IMG/VR virus record: IMGVR_UViG_3300027754_004715
Coordinates: 1 to 28,123 of that record
Source of the DNA: a virus
DNA length: 28,123 nucleotides
Reading direction: 5' to 3' (one strand)
Shown here in pieces: positions 2,332 through 28,123 of this stretch. Positions within the stretch are counted from its first letter, which is position 1, and each line of letters begins with the position of its first letter. Both the position numbers and the translations under genes were made by a program. Below the pieces are notes generated by a model that saw nothing but the letters and a program-made list of their open reading frames with translations, was not told the origin of the DNA and did no database searches.

Positions 2332-3099
2332 ATGAGGATTGCAATTTCTGGTACATCAAATCAAGGTAAGTCTACTTTAATTAGAGATTTTTTACTCGAG
2401 TGGCCTACGTATAAGTTTGTAGGCAATAATTATAGAGAATTAATCGATAAAGAAAAAATACCGCACAGTAAATCGACTACTAAAGAATCTCAATGGAAGA
2501 TTCTTAATTGTATATTAGATGAAATGCAAAAATATACATCTAAAGATAATGTTATATTTGATAGATGCACATTAGATAATTTAGTGTATTCTCTTTGGAG
2601 TTTTGATAAACAAACTTCAAATATAGATAAAGAATTTATAGATAAATGTATACCATTAGTTCGTGAAAGTTTAAAGTTTCTGGATATTATATTTTTCTTA
2701 CCTATAACAAAAGCTGCACCAGTATCTATAATTGAAAATGGTACCCGTGAAACAGATAGTATATATGTTAATGAAATAGACTCTCTTTTTAAGAGTTTAA
2801 ATATTCAATATAAACATAATTTAGGCAAAACTCCATTTTTTCCTGCAGAAGATTGCCCGGGTATTATTGAAATTTTAGGATCACCATTCGAACGTGTTCA
2901 AATGATTAAATGGTATCTCAATAAAGATGGTGAGTTAGTTGGTGGGGATGTTAATGACCCGAGTAATCTTTTTAACCCACAAAATCTTGAAGCGATGGCA
3001 GATTTATTAAAGACACAAAAACAAGATTTAAACAAAGAAGTGTCTTATAAGACAGAACTTAAAAAGATAAAAGATTTCGTTAAAAAGACGAAACGTTAA
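2332..3099 (+). CDS. P-loop nucleotide/nucleoside kinase-like ATPase (AAA_28/NadR-like)
   Basis: 255 aa. The Walker A motif GTSNQGKST is at residues 7-15, and FDRCTLDNLVY at 76-86 supplies the Asp-Arg pair typical of thymidylate/deoxynucleoside-kinase-like folds. The kinase-like core runs to about residue 190; a further 65 residues form an extra, charged, probably helical C-terminus (about 200-255). The protein at 27221 has the same plan and shares 8 of 11 residues in the FDRC...LVY motif, so the two are paralogues. Substrate is unknown; a modified or unmodified deoxynucleotide or NAD-type ribosyl group are possible. The gene converges on the tail-fibre gene, and the two stop codons overlap in TTAA. 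Confidence 0.65.
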   Translation: MRIAISGTSNQGKSTLIRDFLLEWPTYKFVGNNYRELIDKEKIPHSKSTTKESQWKILNCILDEMQKYTSKDNVIFDRCTLDNLVYSLWSFDKQTSNIDKEFIDKCIPLVRESLKFLDIIFFLPITKAAPVSIIENGTRETDSIYVNEIDSLFKSLNIQYKHNLGKTPFFPAEDCPGIIEILGSPFERVQMIKWYLNKDGELVGGDVNDPSNLFNPQNLEAMADLLKTQKQDLNKEVSYKTELKKIKDFVKKTKR

Positions 3100-3901: not shown

Positions 3902-4750
3902 ATGGTTAAAATCGGAGTTGGAATTATAACTTGTAACAGACCTAATTATTTAGAAAATTTGGTAAACACGCTGCCTTTAAAGGCAATTAATGAACTTGTT
4001 GTGATTAATGATGGTAAAGACATCGATCTACCAAGTTGCCTTAAAGATTACCCTTGTAAATACATACTTAACTCAGTTAATTTAGGGGTAGGTAAATCAA
4101 AAAATAAAGCTATAAAGCATTTATATGATGCAGGATGTGATTATATTTTTATAATTGAAGATGATATGTTAATTAAAGACATTACGATATTTGACAGATA
4201 TATACAGGCCTATTTAAAGTCCGGTATACATCATTTTAATTACGGGCCAGGCTCACCGTTTAATAGAGTTCAGACAATTAAAAACTTTGATCTACATAAT
4301 AGACATTTATTGGACCAGCACACCCAACCGAACCCTAAAATTATAATAGATTATGGTAACGATATAAAGATTGCGTTATATGAACATACTGTTGCGATGT
4401 TTTCATTCTTTACAAGACACGTAATAGAAAAGGTTGGGTATATTGATGAAGAATTTTTCAATGCTTGGGAACACGTTGATCATACGTACCGTATTATTAA
4501 AGCTGGGTATCATCCACCATTTTGGTGGTTTGCAGATATAGCAGATAGTGATAAATATTTAACTGAAGCCCCGGGAGCAATCGACAATTCATCTATAGCT
4601 AATAAAACTGAGCAATGGGAAAAAAATGTATACGGTGGCAGAGAGATATACTTAAAAAAGCATGGCCATTATCCAAACCAACCCCCATTTGTATCTAAAG
4701 ACGAAGTCATTTCAATAATTAAAACACTTAAATCCAATGGTAAAAAATAG
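3902..4750 (+). CDS. GT-A glycosyltransferase, family 2-like
   Basis: 282 aa. It opens with the GT2 signature VGIITCNRPNYLENLVNTL (5-23), followed by VVINDGKD (33-40), NLGVGKSKNKAI (60-71) and the metal/nucleotide-binding EDDM (86-89). Further on, FFNAWEHVDHTYRIIKAGY is the usual acceptor/catalytic-base region (E/D-H-D) of such enzymes. It should move a sugar from a nucleotide sugar to a glycan or protein acceptor in the cytoplasm. First gene of the island, directly behind a strong leaderless promoter; its end overlaps the next gene by 14 bp. Donor and acceptor are unknown. Confidence 0.8.
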   Translation: MVKIGVGIITCNRPNYLENLVNTLPLKAINELVVINDGKDIDLPSCLKDYPCKYILNSVNLGVGKSKNKAIKHLYDAGCDYIFIIEDDMLIKDITIFDRYIQAYLKSGIHHFNYGPGSPFNRVQTIKNFDLHNRHLLDQHTQPNPKIIIDYGNDIKIALYEHTVAMFSFFTRHVIEKVGYIDEEFFNAWEHVDHTYRIIKAGYHPPFWWFADIADSDKYLTEAPGAIDNSSIANKTEQWEKNVYGGREIYLKKHGHYPNQPPFVSKDEVISIIKTLKSNGKK

Positions 4751-5510
4751 TTGTATATTTTATTTAGTTAATAATAATCCTATTCATTTGAGTAGGCTTT
4801 ATAATAGTCTAGACTGTTTAAAAGAAAATTTTTTAAACGACTACCCATACCCAGTTGTATTTGGGCATGAAGGCATATCACAAGATATTATTGATGCTAT
4901 TAAAATAAAGGCTCCCACGAACCATTATTTTTATAACGTTAAATTTAAAACGCCGGATTATTCTAAAGATATATTATCTAAAATACCGGAAAAATTTAAA
5001 GGTCATTGGGATGAAAATGCTTTTTTCTCTCTTGGTTATAGACATATGTGTAATTTCTTTTCTGGAGATATGTATACACAAGAATTCTTTTCAAAAGTTA
5101 AATATCTATTAAGGTTAGATTGTGATTCGTATATTACAGGCAAAATAAATAAAGATATTTTTGAAATAATGCAGACAAATAAAGCAATTTACGGGTCTGT
5201 AGGTTCGAAAGTAAATGAAATGGATTATGTTATAGAAGGGTTTGAAGATCACTGCAAACAGTATTTTAAAGGAAAATTTAAAGGAGCTGATATCCATACT
5301 ACGTATGATACGCATTTTGAATTAGTAGATGTGCAATGGTTTAAAGATCCTCTATATATGGATTATTATAATAGTATACAAAAGACGGGCAACATCTATA
5401 TTAAAAGATGGGGAGATGCACCAATTAAATATCAAGGAGTTAATAATCTTATTAGTGAAGAGAATATATATCTTTTTGATATACCGTATAAGCATGGAGG
5501 TGACTTGTAA
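4737..5510 (+). CDS. GT15-like (Kre2/Mnt1-type alpha-1,2-mannosyltransferase-like) glycosyltransferase
   Basis: 257 aa. Several blocks match the fungal GT15 family in order: GYRHMCNFFSG (100-110), YLLRLDCDS (123-131, the family's Y-x-R-[LV]-[DE]-x-D region), HFELVDVQWF (193-202, holding the conserved NFE-like Glu195), GNIYIKRWGDAPI (218-230) and YLFDIPYKHGG (245-255). Kre2/Mnt1 enzymes add mannose from GDP-mannose with a metal ion in the yeast Golgi; here there is no signal anchor, so the enzyme would be cytoplasmic. It is shorter than the fungal proteins, which carry N-terminal stem regions. A GDP-mannose 4,6-dehydratase-like gene downstream makes a GDP-sugar donor plausible. Actual donor not shown. 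Confidence 0.75.
   Translation: MVKNSCIFYLVNNNPIHLSRLYNSLDCLKENFLNDYPYPVVFGHEGISQDIIDAIKIKAPTNHYFYNVKFKTPDYSKDILSKIPEKFKGHWDENAFFSLGYRHMCNFFSGDMYTQEFFSKVKYLLRLDCDSYITGKINKDIFEIMQTNKAIYGSVGSKVNEMDYVIEGFEDHCKQYFKGKFKGADIHTTYDTHFELVDVQWFKDPLYMDYYNSIQKTGNIYIKRWGDAPIKYQGVNNLISEENIYLFDIPYKHGGDL
5496..5503 (+). promoter_or_regulatory. Strong Shine-Dalgarno GGAGGTGA
   Basis: GGAGGTGA lies 6 nt before the ATG at 5510, inside the end of the upstream gene. It fixes that start and is unusual here, since most genes lack such a site. Confidence 0.75.
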
Positions 5511-6121
5511 TGCAATATAACTATGTAGATTGGGAGATTAGAAAAAAACCTTACCCGTCGTTAATAAAAGCTATAGAACTTTTTAAGTCTATAAACGGTA
5601 AAGTTATAGTAGAAGTCGGTTCAATGCGTAAACCTGCATTGCATGATATACACGATTATAGCCATGAATGCTGTATGGAAGGGCACAGCAGTATGCTATT
5701 TGCTTTAAGTAGTCAAGAATTTCACACAGTTGATATAGATATGCCAACTTCAAAAATAACCCACAAAGCATTAAAAGCTTTAAACATAACAAATAATTGG
5801 AATGTATATAATGGTGACGGTATTAAATTTTTAAAAGAATTTAAAGGGGTGATAGATTTATTATTTTTAGACGCTTGGGATATTGGAGTTAATAATTATG
5901 CAGAAAATCATCTTGAAGCATATAAAGCAGCAGAACCAAAGTTAAACAAACGACACATAATCTTAATAGACGATACAGATATTAATCATACTGCAGAAAG
6001 AGGATTTCATAATGACGAGGACAGTATGGGTGGTAAAGGATCAGTAGTTATCCCTTATCTTATAAAAAACGGATATACTGTAGTATTTAAAGGTCGTCAA
6101 ACATGCTTAATTAAACAATAA
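5510..6121 (+). CDS. Class I SAM methyltransferase-like protein
   Basis: 203 aa. The Rossmann pattern of a SAM-dependent methyltransferase is visible: VIVEVGSMR (32-40) as motif I, HTVDID (72-77) as the acidic end of strand 2, DLLFLDAWD (116-124) as motif II, and ILIDDTD (151-157). The DAWD/IDDTD pattern resembles the Methyltransf_24 group often found with sugar-biosynthesis genes. Motif I lacks the usual third Gly (GSMR, not GxGxG), so SAM use should be checked. Its ATG overlaps the upstream stop (TAATG) and has a strong Shine-Dalgarno. Likely substrate is a sugar or glycan in this cluster; inference from position. Confidence 0.6.
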   Translation: MQYNYVDWEIRKKPYPSLIKAIELFKSINGKVIVEVGSMRKPALHDIHDYSHECCMEGHSSMLFALSSQEFHTVDIDMPTSKITHKALKALNITNNWNVYNGDGIKFLKEFKGVIDLLFLDAWDIGVNNYAENHLEAYKAAEPKLNKRHIILIDDTDINHTAERGFHNDEDSMGGKGSVVIPYLIKNGYTVVFKGRQTCLIKQ

Positions 6122-6122
6122 T

Positions 6123-6869
6123 ATGAAAATTGCAATACTAGTACCATCAAGAGAAAGAATGAATAGACGTCTAACCATGTTGATGTCTATTTTAACATCA
6201 GTTAAAGATATTAATAACGTTAATATTTATCTAGGTGTAGATGAAGATGATCCAACGAGAGATAGAATTAAAAAAATTGCTGCAGCTATACCGTGTGTTA
6301 AAATTGTTGATATAAAAAATAACGGCAAATTTATTGGTTTAGGAAAAATGTGGAATATCTGCACAGACAATTCAACTGAAGAAATTATTTCTATGATAGG
6401 AGATGATATGGTTTTTGCAACTCCTGGATGGGATGAAATGATAATTGAAGAGTTTAAAAATGCACCTGCAGATAATATTAAAGCTGTCCATTGTAATGAT
6501 GGTTGCCATGGTAGTAAGTTAGCCGTTAATTTATTTTGTAATCGCAAATATGCACAAATAATGGGTAGATTTATGAGAGAAGAATTTAAAATAAATTGGG
6601 TGGACCAATGGCTTCATCAAGAATTTTCAGCTTTTAACCGTTTGACGTATCGCGGAGATATAATGATTGAGCACCGGCATTGGGTGTTAGGTAAAGATAC
6701 AAGAGACAGTGTTGCTGATAGAATGGCAGTTGCAGACAAAGATAAAATTAGCGATAAATTATGGCATGATTTAGTTCAAGAAAGAATTAACGATGTTAAT
6801 AAAATATCAAAATATTTAAATATTTTACCAGATTGGAGTAAGGTTGATACTGCTGGGGGGAAAATATAA
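6123..6869 (+). CDS. GT-A glycosyltransferase-like protein
   Basis: 248 aa. It begins with a GT2-like strand (MKIAILVPSRERMNRRLTMLM) and carries GDDM at 93-96 as the likely metal/nucleotide-sugar site, within IISMIGDDMVFATPGWDE. The remaining half includes WVDQWLHQEFSAFNRL and HRHWVLGKD, which could hold acceptor-side residues. Two bases separate it from the upstream gene and its stop overlaps the next start (TAATG), so it is part of the island transcript. Donor and acceptor unknown. Confidence 0.7.
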   Translation: MKIAILVPSRERMNRRLTMLMSILTSVKDINNVNIYLGVDEDDPTRDRIKKIAAAIPCVKIVDIKNNGKFIGLGKMWNICTDNSTEEIISMIGDDMVFATPGWDEMIIEEFKNAPADNIKAVHCNDGCHGSKLAVNLFCNRKYAQIMGRFMREEFKINWVDQWLHQEFSAFNRLTYRGDIMIEHRHWVLGKDTRDSVADRMAVADKDKISDKLWHDLVQERINDVNKISKYLNILPDWSKVDTAGGKI

Positions 6870-7513
6870 TGGGAGAGATAACAAACTTAGATAAATTTGG
6901 GCAAGCTATTATATCAACAGTAAAAAAATATAATATACAAACCGTGCTTGAAATAGGGTCTTGGGACGGTACAGGCTCTACTCAATGTTTTATTGAAGGA
7001 ATGGAAGACTTCGACAACAAACGTTTAATATGTTTAGAAGTATATATGGACAGATTTAAACAACTATGTAGCAATACCGCAAAACATAGTTGGGTGGAAT
7101 GTTATAATCAATCATCAATTAGCTATGGTAATATGATATATAAGAACTTTGATAATATCTGGGATTCCCCATATAACTTTATACCTAAAGAAGATGGTAA
7201 TGGTAGTACTAAGCCAATTGTATCTGAATGGTTTAAACAAGATATCGAGATGATGAATAAGTTTAAATCTGGGTATATTGAAGACCATCCAGATGAAACT
7301 TACGATGCAGTGTTAATTGATGGTGGGGAGTTTTCCGGTTATAGTGAGTTTAAGCTTTTAAGAAATAAATCTAAGTTCTTTATTCTTGATGATTATTACA
7401 AAGCTTTTAAGACTCGTCAAATTGCAGATGAACTTAATACAGATATTAATTGGGAGGCAATTGCTGGGGATAAACATACAAGAAACGGCTGGGCTATTTT
7501 TAAACGCAAATGA
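6869..7513 (+). CDS. Class I SAM methyltransferase-like protein
   Basis: 214 aa. VLEIGSWDGTGS (26-37) is a good motif I, LICLEVYMDRF (53-63) the acidic strand-2 end, YDAVLIDGGEFSG (145-157) motif II and FFILDDYYK (170-178) the following strand. The overall plan is like Methyltransf_24-type enzymes. A G-run (6855-6860) 8 nt before the ATG may serve as ribosome-binding site. Its last four bases (ATGA) form the start of the next gene. Probably methylates a sugar or glycan made by its neighbours, but nucleic acid or protein substrates are not excluded. Confidence 0.65.
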   Translation: MGEITNLDKFGQAIISTVKKYNIQTVLEIGSWDGTGSTQCFIEGMEDFDNKRLICLEVYMDRFKQLCSNTAKHSWVECYNQSSISYGNMIYKNFDNIWDSPYNFIPKEDGNGSTKPIVSEWFKQDIEMMNKFKSGYIEDHPDETYDAVLIDGGEFSGYSEFKLLRNKSKFFILDDYYKAFKTRQIADELNTDINWEAIAGDKHTRNGWAIFKRK

Positions 7514-8220
7514 AAAAGAAAACAATAGGTATTATACAACCTGGCAAGCTAGGCGATTTAATTATTTGCTTACCCATTGCAAAATATTATTATGATAAAG
7601 GATATGAAGTGTCTTGGCCAATTTTTCATAACTTTGTATCGATGATGTCTGAAGTAGTTGATTATGTTAATTATATTCCAATATCGAATAATGTATATCA
7701 ATGTGTACCTGATGCGTATAATTATTTTAAAATAAATAAACCTACTAAATTATTTGATATAGCTGCTACATTTCCAGGAAGTAAATGCACTGACGAATAT
7801 GTTAAACTCGGGGACGGGTTTGGAGATGAAAAATTTGATCAATTTAAATATAGGCTATGTAAGGTACCTTTTGATTTAAAATGGAAGTTAGAATATAACC
7901 GTAATTTAAATTTAGAGCAAAAAGTATATGATACAATGGTTAAAACTTTAAAATATGATGTGGTATCAACAAAACATTCTCGCGGAGAAGTAAATGTAAA
8001 ATTTGTTAGCAAACTTGATATCGTTAAAGTTAATGAAGATTATAATATATTTCATTGGAGAAAAGTTCTTGAAAATGCAAAATGTTTGGCTTTAGTAGAC
8101 AGTGCCATGGCAAATTTAGTTGAGCAATTAAATTTACCTAATAGAAAAATACTATTGAGAAAACCTGGACAACCTACGCCAGTTTTTAAAAATACTTGGA
8201 TGATTCAATCCGTACCGTGA
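7510..8220 (+). CDS. GT-B (GT9/heptosyltransferase-like) glycosyltransferase
   Basis: 236 aa. IGIIQPGKLGDLIICLPIAK (6-25) is the N-terminal signature of GT9/ADP-heptose:LPS heptosyltransferase-like proteins, with the G-x-x-G-D turn at 12-16. VDSAMANLVEQL (196-207) matches the second, donor-binding domain, where GT9 enzymes have a D-[ST] followed by a helix. It is clearly shorter than standard heptosyltransferases (about 320-350 aa), so the central part is reduced. It overlaps the upstream gene by ATGA. The transferred sugar is unknown. Confidence 0.65.
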   Translation: MKKKTIGIIQPGKLGDLIICLPIAKYYYDKGYEVSWPIFHNFVSMMSEVVDYVNYIPISNNVYQCVPDAYNYFKINKPTKLFDIAATFPGSKCTDEYVKLGDGFGDEKFDQFKYRLCKVPFDLKWKLEYNRNLNLEQKVYDTMVKTLKYDVVSTKHSRGEVNVKFVSKLDIVKVNEDYNIFHWRKVLENAKCLALVDSAMANLVEQLNLPNRKILLRKPGQPTPVFKNTWMIQSVP

Positions 8221-8999
8221 GAATTGCTTTTACGATTATTTTAAACGGTATACAGCATTTAAAACATGCTAATTATTACCAATTTATGACAACTCAGTTT
8301 GATCACTGGGTCATAGTTGAAGGCGTATCAAGGCCTACGGGATCAACATCATGGTGCAAAGAATTATCAACTAATTTCCATAATAATTACCTTTCAAACG
8401 ACGGTACAACTGAGTTTTTAGATACAATGAAGTCTAATAAGGTTACCATTGTAAGATGCAAAGATAAACCATGGGAGAACAAAGACGAGCAAGTTAATGC
8501 AGCTATTGACGTTATTAAAAGTATTACTAACGAGTGTATGTTATGGCAAGTTGATATAGATGAAAAGTGGACAGCCAAGCAATTGCATGAAGCTGAAGAG
8601 ATGTTACGTAAGAACAATGGCAAAACTGGATGTTTCTTATGCAATTACTATGTTGGAAAAAACCAAATTGCTTTAGGTGATTGGGGGGAAGGTAAACATG
8701 AGCCGTATAGGAGGCTATGGAATTGGAAAGGTGAAAAGTTTGCATCTCATGAACCACCTAAGCTTGAAGGTAAAAACGGACCCGGGCTATTATTACCGCA
8801 AAGGTTTAATCACTTTGCATATTACTATAAAGAAGATGTAATATTTAAAGAAGCATATTACGGAGGCTATCAAGGATTATATGAACGCTGGAATAATATT
8901 CAAAGTAATACTAATATATTACCTATAAAAGAGTTGTTAGGACCTGATGTCTGGTGGAGCTTTACAAATACTGTTATAAAATATACAGATGATTGTTGA
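8217..8999 (+). CDS. GT-A-like glycosyltransferase with D-x-D-E motif
   Basis: I place the start at GTG 8217, which overlaps the upstream TGA as GTGA and gives VRIAFTIILNG, a typical start; an ATG at 8196 in the same frame would add seven residues and overlap the upstream gene by 25 bp. From GTG the protein is 260 aa. Key stretches are FDHWVIVEGVSRPTGS (28-43), KDEQVNAAIDVI (89-100) and WQVDIDEKW (110-118) with D-x-D-E at 113-116, the likely metal site. The pattern resembles GT17/GT2-like enzymes. Its 3' end overlaps the next gene by 11 bp. Confidence 0.65.
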   Translation: MRIAFTIILNGIQHLKHANYYQFMTTQFDHWVIVEGVSRPTGSTSWCKELSTNFHNNYLSNDGTTEFLDTMKSNKVTIVRCKDKPWENKDEQVNAAIDVIKSITNECMLWQVDIDEKWTAKQLHEAEEMLRKNNGKTGCFLCNYYVGKNQIALGDWGEGKHEPYRRLWNWKGEKFASHEPPKLEGKNGPGLLLPQRFNHFAYYYKEDVIFKEAYYGGYQGLYERWNNIQSNTNILPIKELLGPDVWWSFTNTVIKYTDDC

Positions 9000-9819
9000 T
9001 GGTAATAATGTTATATCTCATTTCTTAAAAAACAATCTACCTTTATGTGCAGGTAAAATAGGCGTTACAGAACTTAATTTACTTTATTGCCACCATAATT
9101 TAGTTAATGCAGGTAAATTTCTTCCACATTTACAGCATGAAGCTGAAGATATTGCAGGGTTATATCCTTACAATAAAGATACAACAACACAGTTTGCGCA
9201 AGATATGCTTGAACGGCTTGTAACTTTAGATCTTATACCTAAATGGAATAGAGTACATCCAATGTTTGAAAAATTTATATTTGACAATTACTGTAAAAAT
9301 GCATATATTACAGACCTACAACATCTTGAACCATATTTTTTTGATAAACCTTGGACCGATCAGCTTGAAGGTAAAACGGTATTAGTTATAAGCCCGTTTG
9401 CAGAATCTATTGAACGCAATTATAAAAATTTAGATAAAATTTGGAACGGTAAAATAAAATCAAACTTTACATTAAAGGTATTAAAATATCCATTTGCGTT
9501 AAAAATATCACCTAATAGTAATTTTACTACTTCTGATGCTGTTTATAGATACTATTTTAATGCGTTACAACAAGAAAAATTTGATGTATGTATAACTGGT
9601 ACAGGGTATACATCATTATTATTAGCAGCTGAAGCAAAAAAAATGGGTAAAGCCGGTATACATTTAGGCGGTGCAACTCAAATACTTTTCGGTATTAAAG
9701 GTCAGAGATGGAGAGATATAAAAGAATTTCAACCGTTTTTTAATGAGCACTGGACAGACCCACTTGAATCAGAAAAACCAGAAAAGAGAAATTTAGTAGA
9801 AGGCGCTTGTTATTGGTAG
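8989..9819 (+). CDS. Putative GT-D-fold-like glycosyltransferase
   Basis: 276 aa. The N-terminal part has KIGVTELNLL (23-32), then GKTVLVISPFAESI (128-141), KFDVCITGTGYTSL (197-210), a Gly-rich AGIHLGGATQILFGIKG block (222-238) and the C-terminal ending EGACYW (271-276). I have seen this combination (VISPFxESI, IHLGGAxQxLFGIKGxRW, terminal CYW) in proteins of capsule and O-antigen gene clusters, often annotated as hypothetical; the GxxE start resembles the GT-D (DUF1792) type, but that link is uncertain. Island membership is clear from the 11-bp overlap with its neighbour. Confidence 0.55.
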   Translation: MIVDGNNVISHFLKNNLPLCAGKIGVTELNLLYCHHNLVNAGKFLPHLQHEAEDIAGLYPYNKDTTTQFAQDMLERLVTLDLIPKWNRVHPMFEKFIFDNYCKNAYITDLQHLEPYFFDKPWTDQLEGKTVLVISPFAESIERNYKNLDKIWNGKIKSNFTLKVLKYPFALKISPNSNFTTSDAVYRYYFNALQQEKFDVCITGTGYTSLLLAAEAKKMGKAGIHLGGATQILFGIKGQRWRDIKEFQPFFNEHWTDPLESEKPEKRNLVEGACYW

Positions 9820-9831
9820 TATATATTTAAA

Positions 9832-10593
9832 ATGAAAATTATAGTCAAATATGATCCTTATGGTAGAATGGGTAATAGACTCTTTCAGTATGCGTTTGGG
9901 TTAATTTTATCAAAATTAAAGAATGCAGAATTATATCAACCAGAATTACCTAATTTTAATATTATTAATAAAGAATGTAATTTTTATTCTTCAAACGTAT
10001 TCACAACAAAATCTTTCGGCAATCAAACCGTGGATATGGATTTTTTACTTAATCATGACGGCGATATTATTGTAGATTCATTTGTACAAAAAGCAGCATA
10101 TTATATACCACATAGACAGTTGCTAAGGAACAAATTATTACCTAATAATTATATGACAGGCAACGATAGCTTAGTGGTGCATATACGAGAAACAGATTAT
10201 ACATTAATTAATAGTTTCTTAGGATATGAATATTATAAAAAGCTTATTACTGATTCAGGTTATACTAATGTAATTATAGTTACAGACAATTCTGGATGTG
10301 ATACAGTTCAACGTTTATTATCTGAAGGTTGTAAATTAAACTCAGAAGGAAATGTTAATAAGTTCGAACATATTAGTGATTCAAGAGCTATGTCTGATTT
10401 TGATTTATTAGTTCAAAGTAAAAATATTGCTATATCTCAATCATCGTTTTCTTGGTGGGCTGCTTTTCTTAGCGACCATGATAAAATTATTTTTCCGTAT
10501 AAAAAAGAAGGCGGCGTATGGCCTTTAACCCCTGGTAAAGATGATATTGATTTATTTTTTGATTTAGGTTCATCACAAAAATTTATATATTAA
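9832..10593 (+). CDS. GT11-like (alpha-1,2-fucosyltransferase-like) glycosyltransferase
   Basis: 253 aa. GRMGNRLFQYAFG (11-23) matches the GT11 opening G-x-[LM]-GNQ-[LM]-FQYA; VVHIRETDY (115-123) matches the donor-binding H-[IV]-R-R-x-D-Y motif with the second Arg replaced by Glu120; SQSSFSWWAAFLS (202-214) matches the conserved SSFSWW block. GT11 enzymes move L-fucose from GDP-fucose. The Arg-to-Glu change is in a residue important for GDP binding, so donor specificity may be changed. A GDP-mannose 4,6-dehydratase-like gene two genes downstream would supply the first step toward GDP-fucose or another GDP-6-deoxyhexose. Confidence 0.75.
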   Translation: MKIIVKYDPYGRMGNRLFQYAFGLILSKLKNAELYQPELPNFNIINKECNFYSSNVFTTKSFGNQTVDMDFLLNHDGDIIVDSFVQKAAYYIPHRQLLRNKLLPNNYMTGNDSLVVHIRETDYTLINSFLGYEYYKKLITDSGYTNVIIVTDNSGCDTVQRLLSEGCKLNSEGNVNKFEHISDSRAMSDFDLLVQSKNIAISQSSFSWWAAFLSDHDKIIFPYKKEGGVWPLTPGKDDIDLFFDLGSSQKFIY

Positions 10594-10598
10594 AATAA

Positions 10599-11327
10599 AT
10601 GAGCGATATAAAGACAATATATCAGCCGTGGGGAGGGCTTGGCGATAATTTAGCTCATTCAATTATACCAGAACTCTGTAATATAAACGGCTATAAATGT
10701 TTTTTATCAAAAAATAATGCTTACCGTAATGAACAAATATATGATTTAATTTGGAAAGCAAATCCGTTTTTAGAGAAAGAACAACCAGACACGCATGACT
10801 TATCTTGGCTTGATAGATGTGGAGAGTATGAAAACCAAGGCCTTAATCATGTACAGGTAATCCAAAAAACTTACGGATTTAATACATCTTTCGAATATCC
10901 TAAAATTTATTATACTCCTAAATTTTTACCCGAATATAAAAACTCTACATTTATAGATTTTAATAGTATATCTGTAGGATATGATAAAGATATATTGCAA
11001 GATAAACTTAGACAGCTGATGATAGAAAATAACATGCGAGATAATGTTTTTATAGTAACGCATAGTAAGATTGATAATACTCAATATAAATTAGATTTTG
11101 CTACTGACATTATCGATATTAACGATTTATTTTTTTATAGCGATATTGTTTACTCCTGTAAGAACATTATAACACTTAATTCTGGGATGACTAATTTAGC
11201 TTCAACTATAAAGAACCAATTTCAGAATGATGCGCAGATATACACTTTTACGTATAGGAAGTATTTAAAAGAATCTGGGAGTAACGGGTATTTTTATAGT
11301 AATAATAATTACATCACTGTTGATTAA
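10599..11327 (+). CDS. GT-B-like (GT9-type) glycosyltransferase-like protein
   Basis: 242 aa. It starts with TIYQPWGGLGDNLAHSIIPE (6-25), where GGLGDN (12-17) is the Gly-rich turn of GT9-like proteins, and has LNSGMTNLASTI (193-204) in the position of the C-terminal donor-binding segment. The middle contains DRCGEYENQGLNHVQVIQ and a predicted beta-alpha run. It is short for the family. Five bases separate it from the GT11-like gene. Enzyme activity is inferred from the two motifs only. Confidence 0.5.
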   Translation: MSDIKTIYQPWGGLGDNLAHSIIPELCNINGYKCFLSKNNAYRNEQIYDLIWKANPFLEKEQPDTHDLSWLDRCGEYENQGLNHVQVIQKTYGFNTSFEYPKIYYTPKFLPEYKNSTFIDFNSISVGYDKDILQDKLRQLMIENNMRDNVFIVTHSKIDNTQYKLDFATDIIDINDLFFYSDIVYSCKNIITLNSGMTNLASTIKNQFQNDAQIYTFTYRKYLKESGSNGYFYSNNNYITVD

Positions 11328-11347
11328 TAATTAGGATCGTATATAAT
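11320..11347 (+). promoter_or_regulatory. Sigma70-like promoter before the dehydratase gene, leaderless
   Basis: TTGATT (11320-11325), 16 bp, TATAAT (11342-11347); the ATG at 11354 is 6 bp after the -10 box. It gives the second half of the glycan island its own transcription start. Confidence 0.6.
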
Positions 11348-11353
11348 ATCGTT

Positions 11354-12331
11354 ATGAAGTTTTTAATTACTGGTATCACTGGGTTTGCTGGCCCTAACAT
11401 GGCAAATCTTTTAATTAAGGAAGGTCATGAAGTATACGGGTTAGTTCGGCATAGTAATGGTAGAGAGACAGATATACTAGATATTGTACCACATAATAAT
11501 TTCGAAAGTATTAAATTTGTTAGAGCTGATTTAACGAATTTAAGGTCTTTACAGCAAGTATTTAAAGAAAATAAATTTGACGGGGTATTTCATTTAGCAG
11601 CTCAATCTCACCCACCAACTAGCTTTAAAGACCCTATAGGAACGATGCAAGAAAACGTAATAGGCTCTGCAAACTTAATCCAATGTATTGAAGACCATCA
11701 ACCGACTTGTAAGTTGATGTTTTGTAGTACTTCAGAAGTATATGGTAATGTTGGTATTGATGGTCGTAAAATTAAAATTACCGATGCATTAATGCCAGCT
11801 AATCCATACGGTGCAAGTAAAGCTGCAACAGATTTATATTTGCAAGAACGATTTACAAACAATAAAATTACAGGATTTATAACTAGAGCATTTTCTCATA
11901 CAGGTCCAAGGCGAGGTAAAACATTTTCTATATCATCAGACGCATATCAAGTTGCAAGTATGATGCTTGGTAAACAAAATAATAAATTACGTGTAGGTAA
12001 TCTATCAACGGTTAGAGTAGTTTTAGATGTTAGAGATATTGTAAATGCATATTATAAATTAATGATGACAGATAAGTCAAATGGTAAAATTTTTAATATT
12101 GGTGGCGACGTACCTCGTGAGATGGGATTTTATACAGACAAACTTATTGAGTTTAGTGGATTGACTAATGTAGAAAAAGTTATCGACCCATTAATTTATA
12201 GACCATATGATATTCAATATCAGTGGGGTGATATTAGTGAATTGCTTGAAATAACAGACTGGAAACAAACATACACTATAGACCAAACTATTCAAGATCT
12301 TCTTAACTATTGGGTAAAAAAGCTTAGTTAA
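11354..12331 (+). CDS. gmd: GDP-mannose 4,6-dehydratase-like extended SDR enzyme
   Basis: 325 aa, typical length. GITGFAG at 7-13 is the NAD(P)-binding G-x-x-G-x-x-G, DVR-type acidic residues follow, STSEVYG (125-131) matches the STSE-x-YG of GMD (Ser/Thr and Glu catalysis) and PYGASKAATD (151-160) gives the catalytic Tyr152-x-x-x-Lys156. RAFSHTGPRRGKTF is the GMD-type substrate loop (R-x-F-N-H-x-G-P-R-R-G-x-x-F) with Asn replaced by Ser. GMD turns GDP-D-mannose into GDP-4-keto-6-deoxymannose, the precursor of GDP-fucose, GDP-rhamnose and GDP-perosamine. No GDP-fucose synthase is in the window, so the host may finish the pathway. A related epimerase/reductase is the main alternative. Confidence 0.75.
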   Translation: MKFLITGITGFAGPNMANLLIKEGHEVYGLVRHSNGRETDILDIVPHNNFESIKFVRADLTNLRSLQQVFKENKFDGVFHLAAQSHPPTSFKDPIGTMQENVIGSANLIQCIEDHQPTCKLMFCSTSEVYGNVGIDGRKIKITDALMPANPYGASKAATDLYLQERFTNNKITGFITRAFSHTGPRRGKTFSISSDAYQVASMMLGKQNNKLRVGNLSTVRVVLDVRDIVNAYYKLMMTDKSNGKIFNIGGDVPREMGFYTDKLIEFSGLTNVEKVIDPLIYRPYDIQYQWGDISELLEITDWKQTYTIDQTIQDLLNYWVKKLS

Positions 12332-13173
12332 TGAACTTTGTTTTATTTCATATAGGAGTAGACTTTCCAATACATGTTGAACACTGTATTAGAAATATAC
12401 AACAATTTACCCCTAATAGTAAAATCTATTTCTTAACAGACAAACAAGTATCATTCGATAAAGTAGAAACCATTAATGTAGCAGACTTTAATAGTTATAA
12501 ATTGCTTGAATCGAATTTTTTTAAAAACTCATACCATGCTTCGTTATTTAGAAATTCGTTGTTTAGGTTTTTCTTTATAAATGAATTGATAAAGAAATAT
12601 AGCTTAAAAAATGTAACACATTTTGATAATGACGTGCTTATATACAATGATTATACGAAGTTTATAGATATTTTACAACAAAATAATATATCTATAACTC
12701 CGCATTCGAATGAAGAGTATGTTTGCGGTACTATGTATATAAGAGATAATATTGATGTCATCTGCGAGTTTTTTGAAAAATTAATTTTTAAAGACTCTTT
12801 CAGTTTAGATCAATATGCAGGGCAGGGATTTATGCCTAATGAAATGAGATTACTGAGTAAATTAAATAAAGAAACAAATTGTTTAAGTTTATTACCTATA
12901 CTCCCAGTAGGTGAGTTTTCAGTCAATTTTGATAAATTTAATTCTTTATTTGACCCGTCATCGTATGGGCAGCATGTGGGTGGTACACCAGATAGACCAG
13001 AAGGTGGCTGGGTTGCGGCGCAAAATAATCACAGATCTATAGATCAAATGTTAAATAAAAATACAATCGAAGTTGTGTTTGAGAATAAGTTGCCATACGT
13101 GAAATACGATAACAAGTTAATTAAGCTCAATAACTTACACATTCATAGTAAACAATTAAGTAAATATACGTAA
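12331..13173 (+). CDS. GT-A-like glycosyltransferase
   Basis: 280 aa. After an N-terminal strand (MNFVLFHIGVDFPIHVEHCIRN) and KIYFLTD (31-37), HFDNDVLIY (97-105) holds the D-N-D metal site at 99-101. YVCGTMYI and a C-terminal HIHSKQLSKY (about 270-279) fit the H-x-H/acceptor end of GT32/GT77-like enzymes. The ATG overlaps the stop of the dehydratase gene by one base (TAATG). Donor unknown. Confidence 0.65.
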   Translation: MNFVLFHIGVDFPIHVEHCIRNIQQFTPNSKIYFLTDKQVSFDKVETINVADFNSYKLLESNFFKNSYHASLFRNSLFRFFFINELIKKYSLKNVTHFDNDVLIYNDYTKFIDILQQNNISITPHSNEEYVCGTMYIRDNIDVICEFFEKLIFKDSFSLDQYAGQGFMPNEMRLLSKLNKETNCLSLLPILPVGEFSVNFDKFNSLFDPSSYGQHVGGTPDRPEGGWVAAQNNHRSIDQMLNKNTIEVVFENKLPYVKYDNKLIKLNNLHIHSKQLSKYT

Positions 13174-13989
13174 ATGATATCAGGCGAATTATTCCAATCT
13201 TTGTCACAAATAAGTTTTTGCACAGAAAAAAACTGCATTATTAATGATCAATTAAAACATATGCCGCAAAATGTGCATATTATAAAAGAGTTTCCGGTTG
13301 AAAACATAAAACAATATCAAAAAATATTTATATATTCTCATGATATACATGCATTTTTTAGTAAATTTTTAGACCATTTATCAAGCAACACAACTATAAT
13401 TACCCACAATTCAGATATAGGAGTCGATGAGTCATGTTTAAAATATCTTGAATCCCCTAATATTGACAAATGGTTCTGCCAGAACAGACACATCACACAT
13501 CAGAAGTTATTTTCCTTACCTATAGGAATTGCAAACGGTCAATGGCTGCATGGCAATATGCAAGCATTAAAGAGAGTTATAGATACAAAGCCTTTAAAAA
13601 ATAATTTAATATATAAAAATTTCGACATAGGTACCAATATCAATAAAAGAAATTATGTAAACCTGATAACAAACAACAACGGTATATATATGAATCCCAA
13701 TTATGAATTCTCGCGATATATTGAAGAATTATCTAAATATTTATTTGCTATATCGCCTCCAGGTAATGGAGTTGATTGCCACCGAATATGGGAATGTTTA
13801 TCATTAAATGTTATACCGATAGTTGAAGATAACGAATGTTTTAGTCAATTTAAACACTTACCGATTATGTTTATAAATAACTGGCAAGATGTAACGGTGC
13901 CAATGTTAAAAGATAAAATACCGCAATATATAGGTAAAAAATTCGACCTATCGGTTTTAGATATAAATTATTGGAGGAAAATTATATGA
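13174..13989 (+). CDS. Exostosin/GT47-like or related GT-B glycosyltransferase
   Basis: 271 aa. Residues 112-124 (LFSLPIGIANGQW) and 193-207 (ISPPGNGVDCHRIWE), followed by LSLNVIPIV (209-217), match the pattern of exostosin-like and FucT-like GT-B enzymes, in which the SPxGNGxDxHRxWE segment binds the nucleotide sugar. The start follows the upstream stop with no gap. Sugar and acceptor are unknown. Confidence 0.6.
   Translation: MISGELFQSLSQISFCTEKNCIINDQLKHMPQNVHIIKEFPVENIKQYQKIFIYSHDIHAFFSKFLDHLSSNTTIITHNSDIGVDESCLKYLESPNIDKWFCQNRHITHQKLFSLPIGIANGQWLHGNMQALKRVIDTKPLKNNLIYKNFDIGTNINKRNYVNLITNNNGIYMNPNYEFSRYIEELSKYLFAISPPGNGVDCHRIWECLSLNVIPIVEDNECFSQFKHLPIMFINNWQDVTVPMLKDKIPQYIGKKFDLSVLDINYWRKII
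13973..13977 (+). promoter_or_regulatory. Shine-Dalgarno GGAGG that fixes the next start
   Basis: GGAGG lies 8 nt before the ATG at 13986. It argues for that start over an in-frame ATG at 13971, which overlaps this site. Confidence 0.7.
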
Positions 13990-14825
13990 TTGGTATTATT
14001 AGTAGAGATGAAATAGAATTTGTAAGCCATGGGCTATTTCAAAATTTTAGATTTGCTTTAAAAAATTATTTAAATGTAGAATTCAAAAACGTTAATAGCG
14101 TTCAAGATTTAGACAACATTGAAATTCTCTTTATAATAGATGAACATTTTGGGCCGCATGTAGATATTTGGAAAAATGATGCATTTATAAACCAATTAAA
14201 CAGCCGTAATATAAGAACAATTATTTTTAATTTTGAAAAAATTTATGACGCTTTATTTCCATGGAATGTAGACCATCAACGTAATGTAGATCGAATTAAA
14301 AATCTTGTGCAGTTGGTGAGTGATATTAATGATGCCAAAATTTTAAATAGACCTATTATAAATAAACAACTTTTATCACGAGATACTATATTAGTTGAAC
14401 CTGGCGATAAAATTAACGAAATACTTTTTATAGGCCAAATAAATCCTCACGTTTACGTAAGACGTAGAGAGGTCTTAAATTATTTAACTAGTAAAAACTT
14501 ACCATTAAAAATTATAAATTCAGACAGAAAATATACATATAATGAATATCTTAAATTACTGGCAAGTTATAAGTACATACTTAACCCGCTCGGTACTGGA
14601 GATTTTTTAAATTTAAGATTTTACGAAGCATTAAAAGTAGGCAGTATTCCTATACAACAAGTTACTAATGATATGGTTTTAAGTTATAGCGAGTTAAATA
14701 ATGGATATTCTGTAAACTTTAAACATCCAGAACAATTAACTGAATTACCGGTATTAGACTACAAACCATTTAATTACTATCTAGAAGATTATTTCATAGA
14801 AATAAATTTAAAACAATATGTTTAA
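13986..14825 (+). CDS. GT-B-like glycosyltransferase (CgeB/GT10-like C-terminal part)
   Basis: 279 aa from ATG 13986, which has a good Shine-Dalgarno and overlaps the upstream stop as ATGA; an ATG at 13971 would add five residues. The C-terminal half has ILNPLGTGDF (198-207) and LRFYEALKVGSIPI (210-223), the donor-binding R-x-[FY]-E-x-[LM]-x-x-G-x-[IV]-P-[IV] pattern of GT-B enzymes such as CgeB-like and GT10 proteins. The N-terminal half (FIIDEHFGPHVDIWKND) is poorly conserved. Last gene of the island. Confidence 0.65.
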   Translation: MIGIISRDEIEFVSHGLFQNFRFALKNYLNVEFKNVNSVQDLDNIEILFIIDEHFGPHVDIWKNDAFINQLNSRNIRTIIFNFEKIYDALFPWNVDHQRNVDRIKNLVQLVSDINDAKILNRPIINKQLLSRDTILVEPGDKINEILFIGQINPHVYVRRREVLNYLTSKNLPLKIINSDRKYTYNEYLKLLASYKYILNPLGTGDFLNLRFYEALKVGSIPIQQVTNDMVLSYSELNNGYSVNFKHPEQLTELPVLDYKPFNYYLEDYFIEINLKQYV

Positions 14826-14874: not shown

Positions 14875-15462
14875 ATGATTATTAGAGATGTACCGGTTTA
14901 TGATGGGATGTTAATTCATAAGCGATTTGCCTATACATATTTTCGTAAGAAGACTTTACCTATAGGCAATATCGTTGCATTTAGAGCACCAATGCATGTA
15001 CTTGCAAATGGTATGATTGATAGTGAAGATATCTTAAAGAATGATTTTATATATAGCGACGACGCAATTAACTTTTGCTGGGAGATACCAAATTTAGATC
15101 CATTCGGTGCAGTTGCTTGGCAAAGACTATTCAATACTCAAATTGCTAATATCCTATCTTCAATTCTTAAAAAACCAATTGAAGTAGATGGAGATGATCT
15201 TTTAGTTCATAATGAATTTGAAGGCAGCGACGGATCTTTACAGAAAGTAGGCAAGTGCAGTGTTAGTATAACATATTCAAAAAATAACGTAGCGATAGGT
15301 CATACAGGTATTAATGTCAATGCAGGACGTAAAGCTCCTAATTTTGCTTATAGTACTAAGCTTACTGATGAGCAGGTAGATAATCTTATGAAAGCTGTAA
15401 TTGATCTTTTTTATGCTTTAAATGATGACATTTTTATAGCTACTAGCAAAGTCATATGCTAA
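14875..15462 (+). CDS. DUF366-like protein
   Basis: 195 aa. The order of blocks matches the DUF366 family, mainly known from archaea: MIIRDVPVYDG at the start, NIVAFRAPMHV, MIDSEDILKNDFIYSDDAI, AWQRLF, a GDDLLVH-like stretch, KCSVSITYS, HTGINVN, and a final helix. Conserved polar residues (Asp, His, Gln-Arg, Gly-Asp-Asp-Leu) suggest an enzyme, but the reaction is not known to me. It has its own promoter of the same type as the DpdA-like gene at 26421, so a place in nucleobase modification is possible but only inference. Starts a run of genes that includes replication-type proteins. Confidence 0.6.
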   Translation: MIIRDVPVYDGMLIHKRFAYTYFRKKTLPIGNIVAFRAPMHVLANGMIDSEDILKNDFIYSDDAINFCWEIPNLDPFGAVAWQRLFNTQIANILSSILKKPIEVDGDDLLVHNEFEGSDGSLQKVGKCSVSITYSKNNVAIGHTGINVNAGRKAPNFAYSTKLTDEQVDNLMKAVIDLFYALNDDIFIATSKVIC

Positions 15463-23049: not shown

Positions 23050-23242
23050 ACTTGCAAAGCAATTAGTGGGCACATATTGCGTATGTTTTAATATAACATA
23101 TTCAGAGATATCATCAGTTGTCAAAAACATTAAGAGTATTAATTCTATAGAAGATTTAAACAGGTATATGGTTTGCTGCCAAAAATGCACTCTTTGTTGT
23201 CCAGATATTGAAAAAATTATAAACTTTCACAAGAAAAAATAA
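23039..23242 (+). CDS. BFD-like [2Fe-2S] protein
   Basis: 67 aa, almost the size of bacterioferritin-associated ferredoxin (64 aa). Cys14 and Cys16 (YCVCFNIT) and Cys47 and Cys50 (CCQKC) match the C-x-C ... C-x2-C arrangement of BFD-like [2Fe-2S] domains, with 31 residues between the pairs (about 32 in Bfd) and the usual helical YSEISSVVKN and SIEDLNRYM segments. Extra Cys46, Cys53 and Cys54 lie next to the second pair. It probably carries electrons; its neighbour is the class II reductase, which needs reduction of a disulfide, but a link is inference. The 3' part is duplicated directly downstream. Confidence 0.7.
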   Translation: MEDELAKQLVGTYCVCFNITYSEISSVVKNIKSINSIEDLNRYMVCCQKCTLCCPDIEKIINFHKKK

Positions 23243-23364
23243 AAAAATTAAGAGTATTAATTCTATAGAAGATTTAAACAGGTATATGGTTTGCTGCCAA
23301 AAATGCACTCTTTGTTGTCCAGATATTGAAAAAATTATAAACTTTCACAAGAAAAAATAAAAAA
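23129..23364. repeat. 118-bp tandem duplication
   Basis: Bases 23129-23246 are repeated directly at 23247-23364 with the same sequence. The unit contains the 3' part of the BFD-like gene from codon 31 to its stop. The identity of the two copies points to a recent event. The few A bases at the edges make the exact borders uncertain. Confidence 0.95.
23247..23360 (+). pseudogene. Duplicated 3' fragment of the BFD-like gene
   Basis: The second copy keeps the codons for the C-terminal 38 residues, including the CCQKC region and the stop TAA (23358-23360), but no proper start. An internal ATG could still give a 24-residue peptide with the CxxC but without the first Cys pair, so it should not hold a cluster by itself. 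It fills the gap between the BFD-like gene and the hub gene. Confidence 0.8.
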
Positions 23365-23380
23365 TTACTTTTTCTTGTGA
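23345..23380. terminator. Inverted repeat between convergent genes; possible bidirectional terminator
   Basis: TCACAAGAAAAA (23345-23356), a 12-nt AT-rich loop, then TTTTTCTTGTGA (23369-23380): a perfect 12-bp stem. Because the arms lie in the 3' ends of converging genes, both proteins end in H-K-K-K. The first duplicate at 23227-23238 is a second left arm. No strong U-run follows, so termination is possible rather than certain. Confidence 0.5.
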
Positions 23381-26420: not shown

Positions 26421-27224
26421 ATGCTTCATAAAATACTTGTTTCACATGAATCTCCTATATCTATTTTAAACGAATCTAAAGCGTATAATGATTATGATTA
26501 TGCGTTAGTACATTTATTCGAAACGTATCCGAAGTACTTAGAGTTTTTTAAAGAGTCTTTATTAACAGGGCGGCAAGTACTATTAGATAATAGTATATTT
26601 GAGTTAGGTGCAGCGTTTGATAGTAAGAAGTTTGCTGACTATATTAATATCTTAAAACCTTCCTTTTATATTGTACCGGATGTTCTCGAGGATGGTTATA
26701 ACACTGTCAAAGGGTTTGATAAATTTACAAATGAGTATAAAGGGTTACCAGGATTAAAGATCGGTGCTGTGCAAGGTAAAACATATGATGAATTAATTGA
26801 TTGTTACAAATATATGTCTGATTATGCAGATTATATTGCAATTAGTTTTGACTTTTCTTATTACCTTGTTAGTGGGATAGGTAAAACTAAATTAGAGCGG
26901 TGGTGTAATGGCCGTCAAAAATTTATTAATGATCTCATTCAAGACGGGCTGTGGGACTGGAAGAAACCGCACCATTTACTCGGTTGCTCGTTAGCTAAAG
27001 AATTTAAATATTATGTAGACAATAATGTATACAATATTAGATCTTGCGATACGTCTAATCCGGTCGTTGCAGGGTTAAAAGGATTGAGATATAACGGCGA
27101 TCTTGGCTTACAAGATAAGCCATCAGTTAAGTTAGCTGATTTAATAGATCATAAAGTTACGAAGGAAGAACTATATAATATAGAATATAATACGGCAATG
27201 TTTAAACAAATATTAAAAAGATGA
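26421..27224 (+). CDS. dpdA: DpdA-like DNA 7-deazaguanine transglycosylase
   Basis: 267 aa. It follows the tRNA-guanine transglycosylase plan in short form: LLDNSIFELG (54-63) at the place of the TGT DSGGFQ (Asp56, guanine/preQ binding or acid-base), VPDVLEDG (85-92), KIGAVQGKTYDEL (113-125) like GIVQGG, HLLGC (185-189) like HHLMGVG, and SCDTSNPVVAG (208-218), where Asp210 is the likely nucleophile. The lack of a zinc-binding C-terminus and the D-N-S/D-T-S pattern fit phage DpdA-type enzymes, which swap guanine in DNA for a 7-deazaguanine, rather than tRNA enzymes. QueF two genes on supports this. A tRNA target is the alternative. Confidence 0.75.
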   Translation: MLHKILVSHESPISILNESKAYNDYDYALVHLFETYPKYLEFFKESLLTGRQVLLDNSIFELGAAFDSKKFADYINILKPSFYIVPDVLEDGYNTVKGFDKFTNEYKGLPGLKIGAVQGKTYDELIDCYKYMSDYADYIAISFDFSYYLVSGIGKTKLERWCNGRQKFINDLIQDGLWDWKKPHHLLGCSLAKEFKYYVDNNVYNIRSCDTSNPVVAGLKGLRYNGDLGLQDKPSVKLADLIDHKVTKEELYNIEYNTAMFKQILKR

Positions 27225-27781
27225 TTATATCGTTTACTGGTGCGCAATCTTCAGGTAAAAGTACTCTTCTTTCTAAGATGAAAGAAGATGTGTACTTTAA
27301 TGGGTGGTCATTTGAGCCTGAAATTACGAGATCATTAAAAGAGAAGTATAATTTGGTTATAAACGAGCAGGGTGATAATTTTACTCAAATGATTACAATT
27401 AATAGTCATGTGGATAACTATTTAAAAAATTATAAAGTAGACTGCGTGTTTGATAGGTGTGCAATAGATAGTCTAGTATATACAACGTATTTGGTTAATA
27501 CAAATAAAGTGGATGAAGAGTTAGGAAGATATGCAGATTATGCTTGTAAAAAATTAGTAGATAAATATGATATTATTTTTTATACTGACCCTTCGATTCC
27601 TTTAACTGACGACGGGGTTAGAAGTATGGATATAAATTTTAGGAATACTATTATAAATCTTTTTAATCTATATATTGAACATTATAAACCGGTTAATCTG
27701 GTAATGTTATCTGGTAGTGTAGATGAGAGATATAATATATTAAAAGATAGTATTGAAAAACGTAAACAACAATTTAAATAA
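27221..27781 (+). CDS. P-loop nucleotide/nucleoside kinase-like ATPase
   Basis: 186 aa. Walker A GAQSSGKST is at 7-15, FEPEITRSL (31-39) and CVFDRCAIDSLVY (75-87) give the kinase-like substrate and Asp-Arg motifs. It lacks the C-terminal extension of its paralogue at 2332. ATG 27221 overlaps the DpdA-like stop as ATGA, and the gene is followed after three bases by queF. It could phosphorylate a nucleoside or act as a NadR/AAA_28-type enzyme; DpdA works on finished DNA with free base, so the need for a kinase in this cassette is not obvious. Confidence 0.65.
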   Translation: MIISFTGAQSSGKSTLLSKMKEDVYFNGWSFEPEITRSLKEKYNLVINEQGDNFTQMITINSHVDNYLKNYKVDCVFDRCAIDSLVYTTYLVNTNKVDEELGRYADYACKKLVDKYDIIFYTDPSIPLTDDGVRSMDINFRNTIINLFNLYIEHYKPVNLVMLSGSVDERYNILKDSIEKRKQQFK

Positions 27782-27784
27782 AAT

Positions 27785-28123
27785 ATGATTAACGATAATA
27801 CAAATATCAGTAAGCATTTAGGCAAAACTTCTGAGTATAAAAGTACTTACGATTCGACATTATTAGTTGCTGAACCTAGGCAAAGTAATAGAACATATTT
27901 AGGTATCCAAAATAATGCACTACCGTTTGTAGGTTTTGATACGTGGAATGCTTATGAATGTTCGTTTCTTCTTACCAATGGTTGTCCAGTAACTGGAGTA
28001 GTGAAACTTTCATACCCGGCTTCAAGCGAGTTTATTGTTGAGAGTAAATCAATCAAATTATATCTTAATAGTTATAATATGCAGAAGATGGGAAGTTCTC
28101 TTAGAGAGAGTATTGATAATTTT
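27785..28123 (+). CDS. queF: QueF, NADPH-dependent preQ0 reductase (3' end outside window)
   Basis: 113 codons are visible, open to the window end. The fragment matches the N-terminal half of long (E. coli-type) QueF: LGKTSEYKSTYDSTLL (12-27), PRQSNR (31-36), ALPFVGFDTWNAYECSFL (45-62) and the NADPH/substrate loop VESKSIKLYLNSYN (85-98). QueF reduces 7-cyano-7-deazaguanine (preQ0) to 7-aminomethyl-7-deazaguanine (preQ1). The catalytic Cys and Asp of long QueF are in the missing C-terminal half. Direct coupling to the DpdA-like gene suggests that preQ1 or a derivative enters phage DNA. Confidence 0.9.
   Translation, partial: MINDNTNISKHLGKTSEYKSTYDSTLLVAEPRQSNRTYLGIQNNALPFVGFDTWNAYECSFLLTNGCPVTGVVKLSYPASSEFIVESKSIKLYLNSYNMQKMGSSLRESIDNF

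Follow-up and report, generated by a model that had tools for sequence, protein, structure and literature searches.

Kinase-linked DpdA-like transglycosylases of phages and a possible nucleotide-pool route to 7-deazaguanine in DNA

The right end of a 28.1-kb viral record (28,123 nt, G+C content of 31%; this whole stretch is called the window below) carries three + strand genes packed head to tail. These encode a short transglycosylase of the DpdA/TGT superfamily (26421-27224, 267 aa), a P-loop nucleoside/nucleotide kinase of the AAA_28 family (27221-27781, 186 aa) and QueF, the reductase converting 7-cyano-7-deazaguanine to preQ1 (27785-28123, the first 113 aa of a frame left open at the contig end). 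The first two genes share an ATGA-type overlap of 4 nt. The initial annotation had seen here a TGT-like protein with D-N-S and C-D-T-S motifs, an overlapping kinase-like gene and a clear QueF, and each of these identifications withstood the comparisons given below. The question raised by this locus is what a kinase does between an enzyme of base exchange and an enzyme of preQ1 synthesis.

The cassette and its preQ1 supply

Leftward of the trio, the gene content is that of a T4-like phage, with structural and replication proteins that include a class II ribonucleotide reductase, a gp10-like baseplate protein, a helicase and a clamp loader; the carrier of the cassette is a marine-type, T4-like phage. 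A sister record (L005), which is 98.3–99.5% identical to the window at the DNA level across 11.8 kb, reaches beyond the window's end and contains a full QueF gene (L005:11365-12303, 312 aa) followed by a fibre-like gene. Among 84 loci of the window's clade, the majority keep the order transglycosylase–kinase–QueF (kinase at position +1 in 78, QueF at +2 in 74), and its occurrence in the window is therefore not a matter of chance.

The QueF fragment of the window matches QueF_N (1.4e-28) and TIGR03138 (6.5e-31), and the full copy of the sister record reaches 2.8e-71 with the latter model (240 bits against a cut-off of 293). The catalytic motif SNCxxTxQPDWG was found in 73 of the 74 QueF copies of the clade and FHE in all 74 (the window copy ends before both) and, since these motifs are retained, preQ1 is the expected base. 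A search for folE, queD, queE and queC located QueC two genes upstream of the cassette in a contig whose transglycosylase is 81% identical to that of the window (L024), and FolE, QueD-like and QueE-like genes about 25 kb from the cassette in an 81.5-kb relative (G001; 75% identity in the transglycosylase). FolE was not found in 16 of 17 related contigs, all of them fragments. Read together with these relatives, the sequence upholds the earlier view of a single operon and makes preQ1-type DNA modification by the cassette likely.

The same clade includes Flavobacterium phage immuto (vB_FspM_immuto_2-6A, protein immuto26A_65) and Campylobacter phage CP220 (CPT_0056), both having the same neighbouring AAA_28 kinase and both separated from the window's clade by long branches. 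Beyond DpdA and the kinase, immuto encodes QueF, QueD, QueE and FolE, and it differs from the window in a PurN-type formyltransferase placed between DpdA and the kinase; CP220 differs in an HD/P-loop gene beside the transglycosylase, and no QueF was found in the 20.7 kb inspected. Formyl-preQ1 modification has reportedly been described in immuto, and its PurN-type gene matches this. An immuto-like PurN-type formyltransferase also accompanies the kinase and QueF in a subset of the clade (L098-L100). Such genes next to a kinase and QueF (L098:14266-14781, L204:3098-3700 and L205:2619-3215) are candidates for formyl-preQ1 modification in uncultured phages.

Several other features of the window deserve mention. 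A second AAA_28/phrog_2107 kinase is encoded at 2332-3099 (+, 255 aa) and has paralogues in three relatives (G001, G007 and G015). A phage-borne glycan cluster occupies 3902-14825 (+); its run of roughly twelve genes, each of 200-325 aa, encodes a GDP-mannose dehydratase-like epimerase, a methyltransferase and several glycosyltransferases (GT2, GT15, GT11 and RXYLT1-like). At 14875-15462 (+) lies a gene for a DUF366 protein (PF04017, 2.9e-21), a member of a function-unknown family, here found in a phage; a literature look-up on it yielded nothing useful. A tandem duplication of about 120 bp (23124-23367), located in and after a BFD-like [2Fe-2S] gene and absent from the sister record, is either real variation or an assembly artefact.

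Fold, motifs and placement of the transglycosylase

The 26421-27224 protein matched phrog_19058 in a PHROG profile search (E = 8e-60), and tblastn revealed 51.6% identity (5e-69) to the annotated DpdA of immuto and 47% identity to CPT_0056 of CP220. Its best sequence matches are phage DpdA proteins and not the tRNA-specific TGT that the initial annotation had named as the contrary outcome. No match was obtained for it in Pfam (E up to 1), NCBIfam or PADLOC, the Pfam TGT model PF01702 matched neither this protein nor anything else in the window record, and the CxCxxC zinc motif of tRNA TGT was present in no member of the clade and, likewise, in none of 16 long phage DpdA.

In an alignment of 61 relatives, D56, D87, Q118, S142, R165, H185, G188, D210 and N257 were invariant, of which D56 and D210 belong to the catalytic-Asp motifs of the window protein (D56-N57-S58 and D210-T-S). 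The AlphaFold model (pLDDT 91.7) is a TGT-type TIM-barrel, similar to the archaeal TGT 1iq8 (VIA Z 18.0, 235 residues, 3.0 Å) and to the solved DpdA 7ui4 (VIA Z 17.4, 229 residues). TGT structures lead the fold list because TGT dominates the PDB, and the solved DpdA scores about equally. By its predicted fold and its motifs, the protein belongs to the TGT/DpdA superfamily.

The 9g-type DpdA1 and the ParB-linked DpdA are remote homologues with matching catalytic motifs (hhalign probability of 90, with D56 and D210 aligned to D72 and D215, which are invariant in phage DpdA1), and they share with the window's clade the FolE/QueD/QueE/QueC supply genes. Sequence profiles of the window clade and of the long/9g-type DpdA did not detect each other and, judged by sequence, the group of the window transglycosylase is a distinct clade. 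It is presumably DpdA3, a guess made from CP220 and immuto as likely members of that group, which was reportedly linked by Cui and co-workers in 2023 to complete guanine replacement in phages; to our knowledge, a kinase is not part of the DpdA3 description. Protein length was dropped as a clade criterion, as the DpdA of phiSM has only 240 aa and yet falls in the ParB-linked group. The pI or net charge was uninformative as a sign of DNA binding (median pI of 5.39 in the kinase-linked clade, 5.79 in long DpdA and 5.76 in the background), and the full alignment A1, with no conserved stretch, was unusable as a search query.

Nucleotide kinases beside the transglycosylase

The kinase of the window carries Walker A (GAQSSGKS), DR and DGxRS motifs and matches Pfam AAA_28 (3.3e-13), phrog_2107 'thymidylate kinase' as its best PHROG (1.5e-33) and, weakly, TIGR01526. 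Its model (pLDDT 91.3) has a predicted P-loop nucleoside/nucleotide kinase fold, the nearest structures being NadR ribosylnicotinamide kinase (Z 19.2), thymidylate kinase (16.4) and deoxynucleoside kinases (about 16).

To examine this partnership across the clade, 178 loci with a transglycosylase of the window's clade were gathered from phages and viral contigs and reduced to 95 at 90% identity. A nucleotide kinase is present in 94 of these 95 non-redundant members, and the lone exception (L080) is a locus truncated inside the transglycosylase gene. In 83 of the 95, the kinase lies no more than two genes away (DNMK in 28, AAA_28 in 26, DUF3310 in 23, AAA_18 in four and Tmk-like in two). Other placements comprise DUF3310 proteins missed by the ORF caller and found by six-frame search at or near the expected place (L121, L138, L147 and L179), AAA_18 kinases further upstream of the transglycosylase (L184 and L185), the kinase at +3 in immuto, a DNMK at +6 in MaInes, and AAA_28 kinases beside QueF about 8 kb downstream of the transglycosylase (L098 and L100). 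In Rhizobium phage RHph_I1_18 (L006:9962-11230), the transglycosylase is naturally fused to a T7 gp1.7-type DUF3310 domain; the fusion is annotated merely as a DUF3310 domain-containing protein.

By contrast, none of 12 long-DpdA controls has a kinase within two genes (nominal Fisher p = 1.1e-9, with relatedness ignored), and this difference strengthened the suggestion, made in the initial annotation, that the kinase may mark a new step. When 11 complete long-DpdA genomes were searched in full, no DNMK or AAA_28 exceeded the cut-off and one distant DUF3310 was found (in phiFN37). Long DpdA, of the 9g and ParB-linked types, have clamps, DNA polymerases or ParB-like proteins, and not kinases, as neighbours, and their modification is partial. 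No members of the BSTP12/Youna2 clade were found in viral contigs. Nearly every member of the window's DpdA clade has a kinase partner and no long-DpdA control does, and this partnership is what is new in this analysis; a literature search on DpdA3 and on kinases with 7-deazaguanine, whose reach excluded most subscription papers, returned no paper describing the link.

At least five types of partner kinase were distinguished: AAA_28, T4-gp1-like DNMK (PF21448), DUF3310, AAA_18 and Tmk-like. At position +1, A3-clade loci carry one of two kinases, a T4-gp1-like DNMK or a DUF3310 protein. On the transglycosylase tree, these two replaced each other at this position at least five times, with at least eight changes of kinase type overall; both counts are subject to tree error, as the tree was quickly built and has several long branches. 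Most A3-clade cassettes have a dCTP deaminase/dUTPase-like protein after the kinase (at +2 in 73 of 84, e.g. L011:9378-9872).

T7 gp1.7 itself matches DUF3310 (4.5e-23), and the DUF3310 proteins of the cassettes are shorter and linked to it solely via the Pfam domain. This T7 protein phosphorylates dTMP and dGMP (PMC7693777); T4 gp1, from an unrelated family, also phosphorylates dGMP, and dGMP and dTMP are the substrates shared by the two. Since unrelated kinases replace each other, the selected function is likely phosphorylation of a dGMP-like nucleotide, although dTMP is equally shared, and dGMP as a common substrate would fit a guanine-exchanging partner. In Aeromonas phage Ahp1, the DNMK adjoining the transglycosylase is a diverged second copy, a canonical gp1 being encoded elsewhere, which suggests a dedicated substrate.

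Guanine exchange before or after replication

The near-constant pairing with one of at least five kinds of kinase suggests that guanine is swapped before replication, in the pool of DNA precursors and not in finished DNA. This extends the initial annotation, in that the substrate of the enzyme may be a free nucleotide and not DNA. In the proposed mechanism, QueF would reduce free preQ0 to preQ1, as expected of its family, and the short DpdA would exchange the guanine of free dGMP, possibly of deoxyguanosine, for preQ1 by a TGT-type double displacement. The adjoining kinase, recognized by its fold, would phosphorylate the modified nucleotide, and the cellular nucleoside-diphosphate kinase would form the triphosphate, which the phage polymerase would then incorporate. 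A kinase of the phage's own would be required because the cellular guanylate kinase may reject a 7-substituted nucleotide. We lean slightly towards reading the trio as a 7-deazaguanine DNA-modification cassette whose insertion step works on the nucleotide pool, with the kinase charging the product and the polymerase incorporating it. The broader proposal, that the clade swaps guanine on free deoxyguanosine nucleotides in a pre-replicative route for which each lineage recruits an available dNMP/nucleoside kinase, appears to us evenly balanced. The AAA_28 kinase of the window's own clade is nearest in fold to NadR, a nucleoside kinase, so that it may act on the nucleoside or on the monophosphate, and this was counted against the pool model.

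T4 incorporates hydroxymethyl-dCTP through its polymerase, and the logic proposed here is the same: a monophosphate is modified, phosphorylated by a phage dNMP kinase (gp1) and incorporated. Some cassettes of the transglycosylase clade use a gp1 homologue, as T4 does. Unlike in T4, the modified nucleotide would arise by enzymatic base exchange, and no dedicated dGTPase is conserved. A dGTP-removing enzyme would be expected under complete replacement, and no conserved partner of this kind was found in the clade. MazG was ruled out as a general dGTP remover, being restricted to phi13:1 and, among the controls, S0112, in both cases below the cut-off; other candidates are PRA-PH in immuto and HD in CP220.

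The best-surviving alternative is that exchange takes place in finished DNA, as with DpdA1 and DpdA2, and that the kinase serves dNTP supply in general (e.g. for dTMP) and happens to share the operon. The pool-level proposal contradicts this post-replicative view, which Cui and co-workers are said to have inferred for 7-deazaguanines. TGT and the solved DpdA, with which the transglycosylase shares its fold and catalytic motifs, both act on polymers; the dCTP-deaminase/dUTPase of the A3-clade cassettes is a general nucleotide enzyme; and dNMP kinases are common in phages without DpdA, e.g. in many cyanophages with DUF3310. However, kinases adjoin this clade and not long DpdA, non-homologous kinases were repeatedly swapped at one position, and a transglycosylase-kinase fusion exists. 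Moreover, the trio of the window's clade sits among structural genes and not in a nucleotide cluster, and Ahp1 already has another dNMP kinase elsewhere. On this evidence, we consider post-replicative exchange rather unlikely.

A role of the AAA_28 kinase in feeding NAD(P)H to QueF, as a ribosylnicotinamide kinase of the NadR type, is improbable. NadR is its nearest fold, the TIGR01526 match points the same way and the neighbouring QueF is an NADPH enzyme, but CP220 has the same kinase type at its transglycosylase and no QueF in the region inspected, dNMP kinases are the partners of this transglycosylase in other clades, and the best PHROG is that of thymidylate kinase. Still less credible is phosphorylation of the inserted base within DNA, a hypermodification step like that of the phage 5-hydroxymethyl-dU DNA kinases, which the position of the gene between DpdA and QueF and the similar P-loop kinases generally known from hypermodified phages might suggest, but preQ1 carries an amine and lacks a hydroxyl, the T4 gp1-type and T7 gp1.7-type partners belong to families known for activity on free dNMPs, and kinases also lie beside transglycosylases with no QueF in the neighbourhood.

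Pool-level exchange followed by kinase charging would also bear on the extent of modification. In the long-DpdA (DpdA1/2) phages measured by Hutinet et al., at most about 32% of G is modified (PMC6884629, Table 2). CP220-type phages were described as 'highly modified', and a modified-dGTP route was raised for these Campylobacter phages without a gene for it, together with a possible DpdA-independent pathway (Hutinet et al. 2019, PMC6884629). The presence of the kinase-linked enzyme in highly modified CP220-type phages would fit the pool route. How some phages replace most or all of their guanine had been unclear, and the kinase link offers a concrete mechanism for a system whose matches, 512 plus at least 511, come from about 1,000 environmental viral contigs. 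If this mechanism is true, TGT chemistry would be extended from polymers to mononucleotides, and the clade would provide enzymes for making modified dNTPs.
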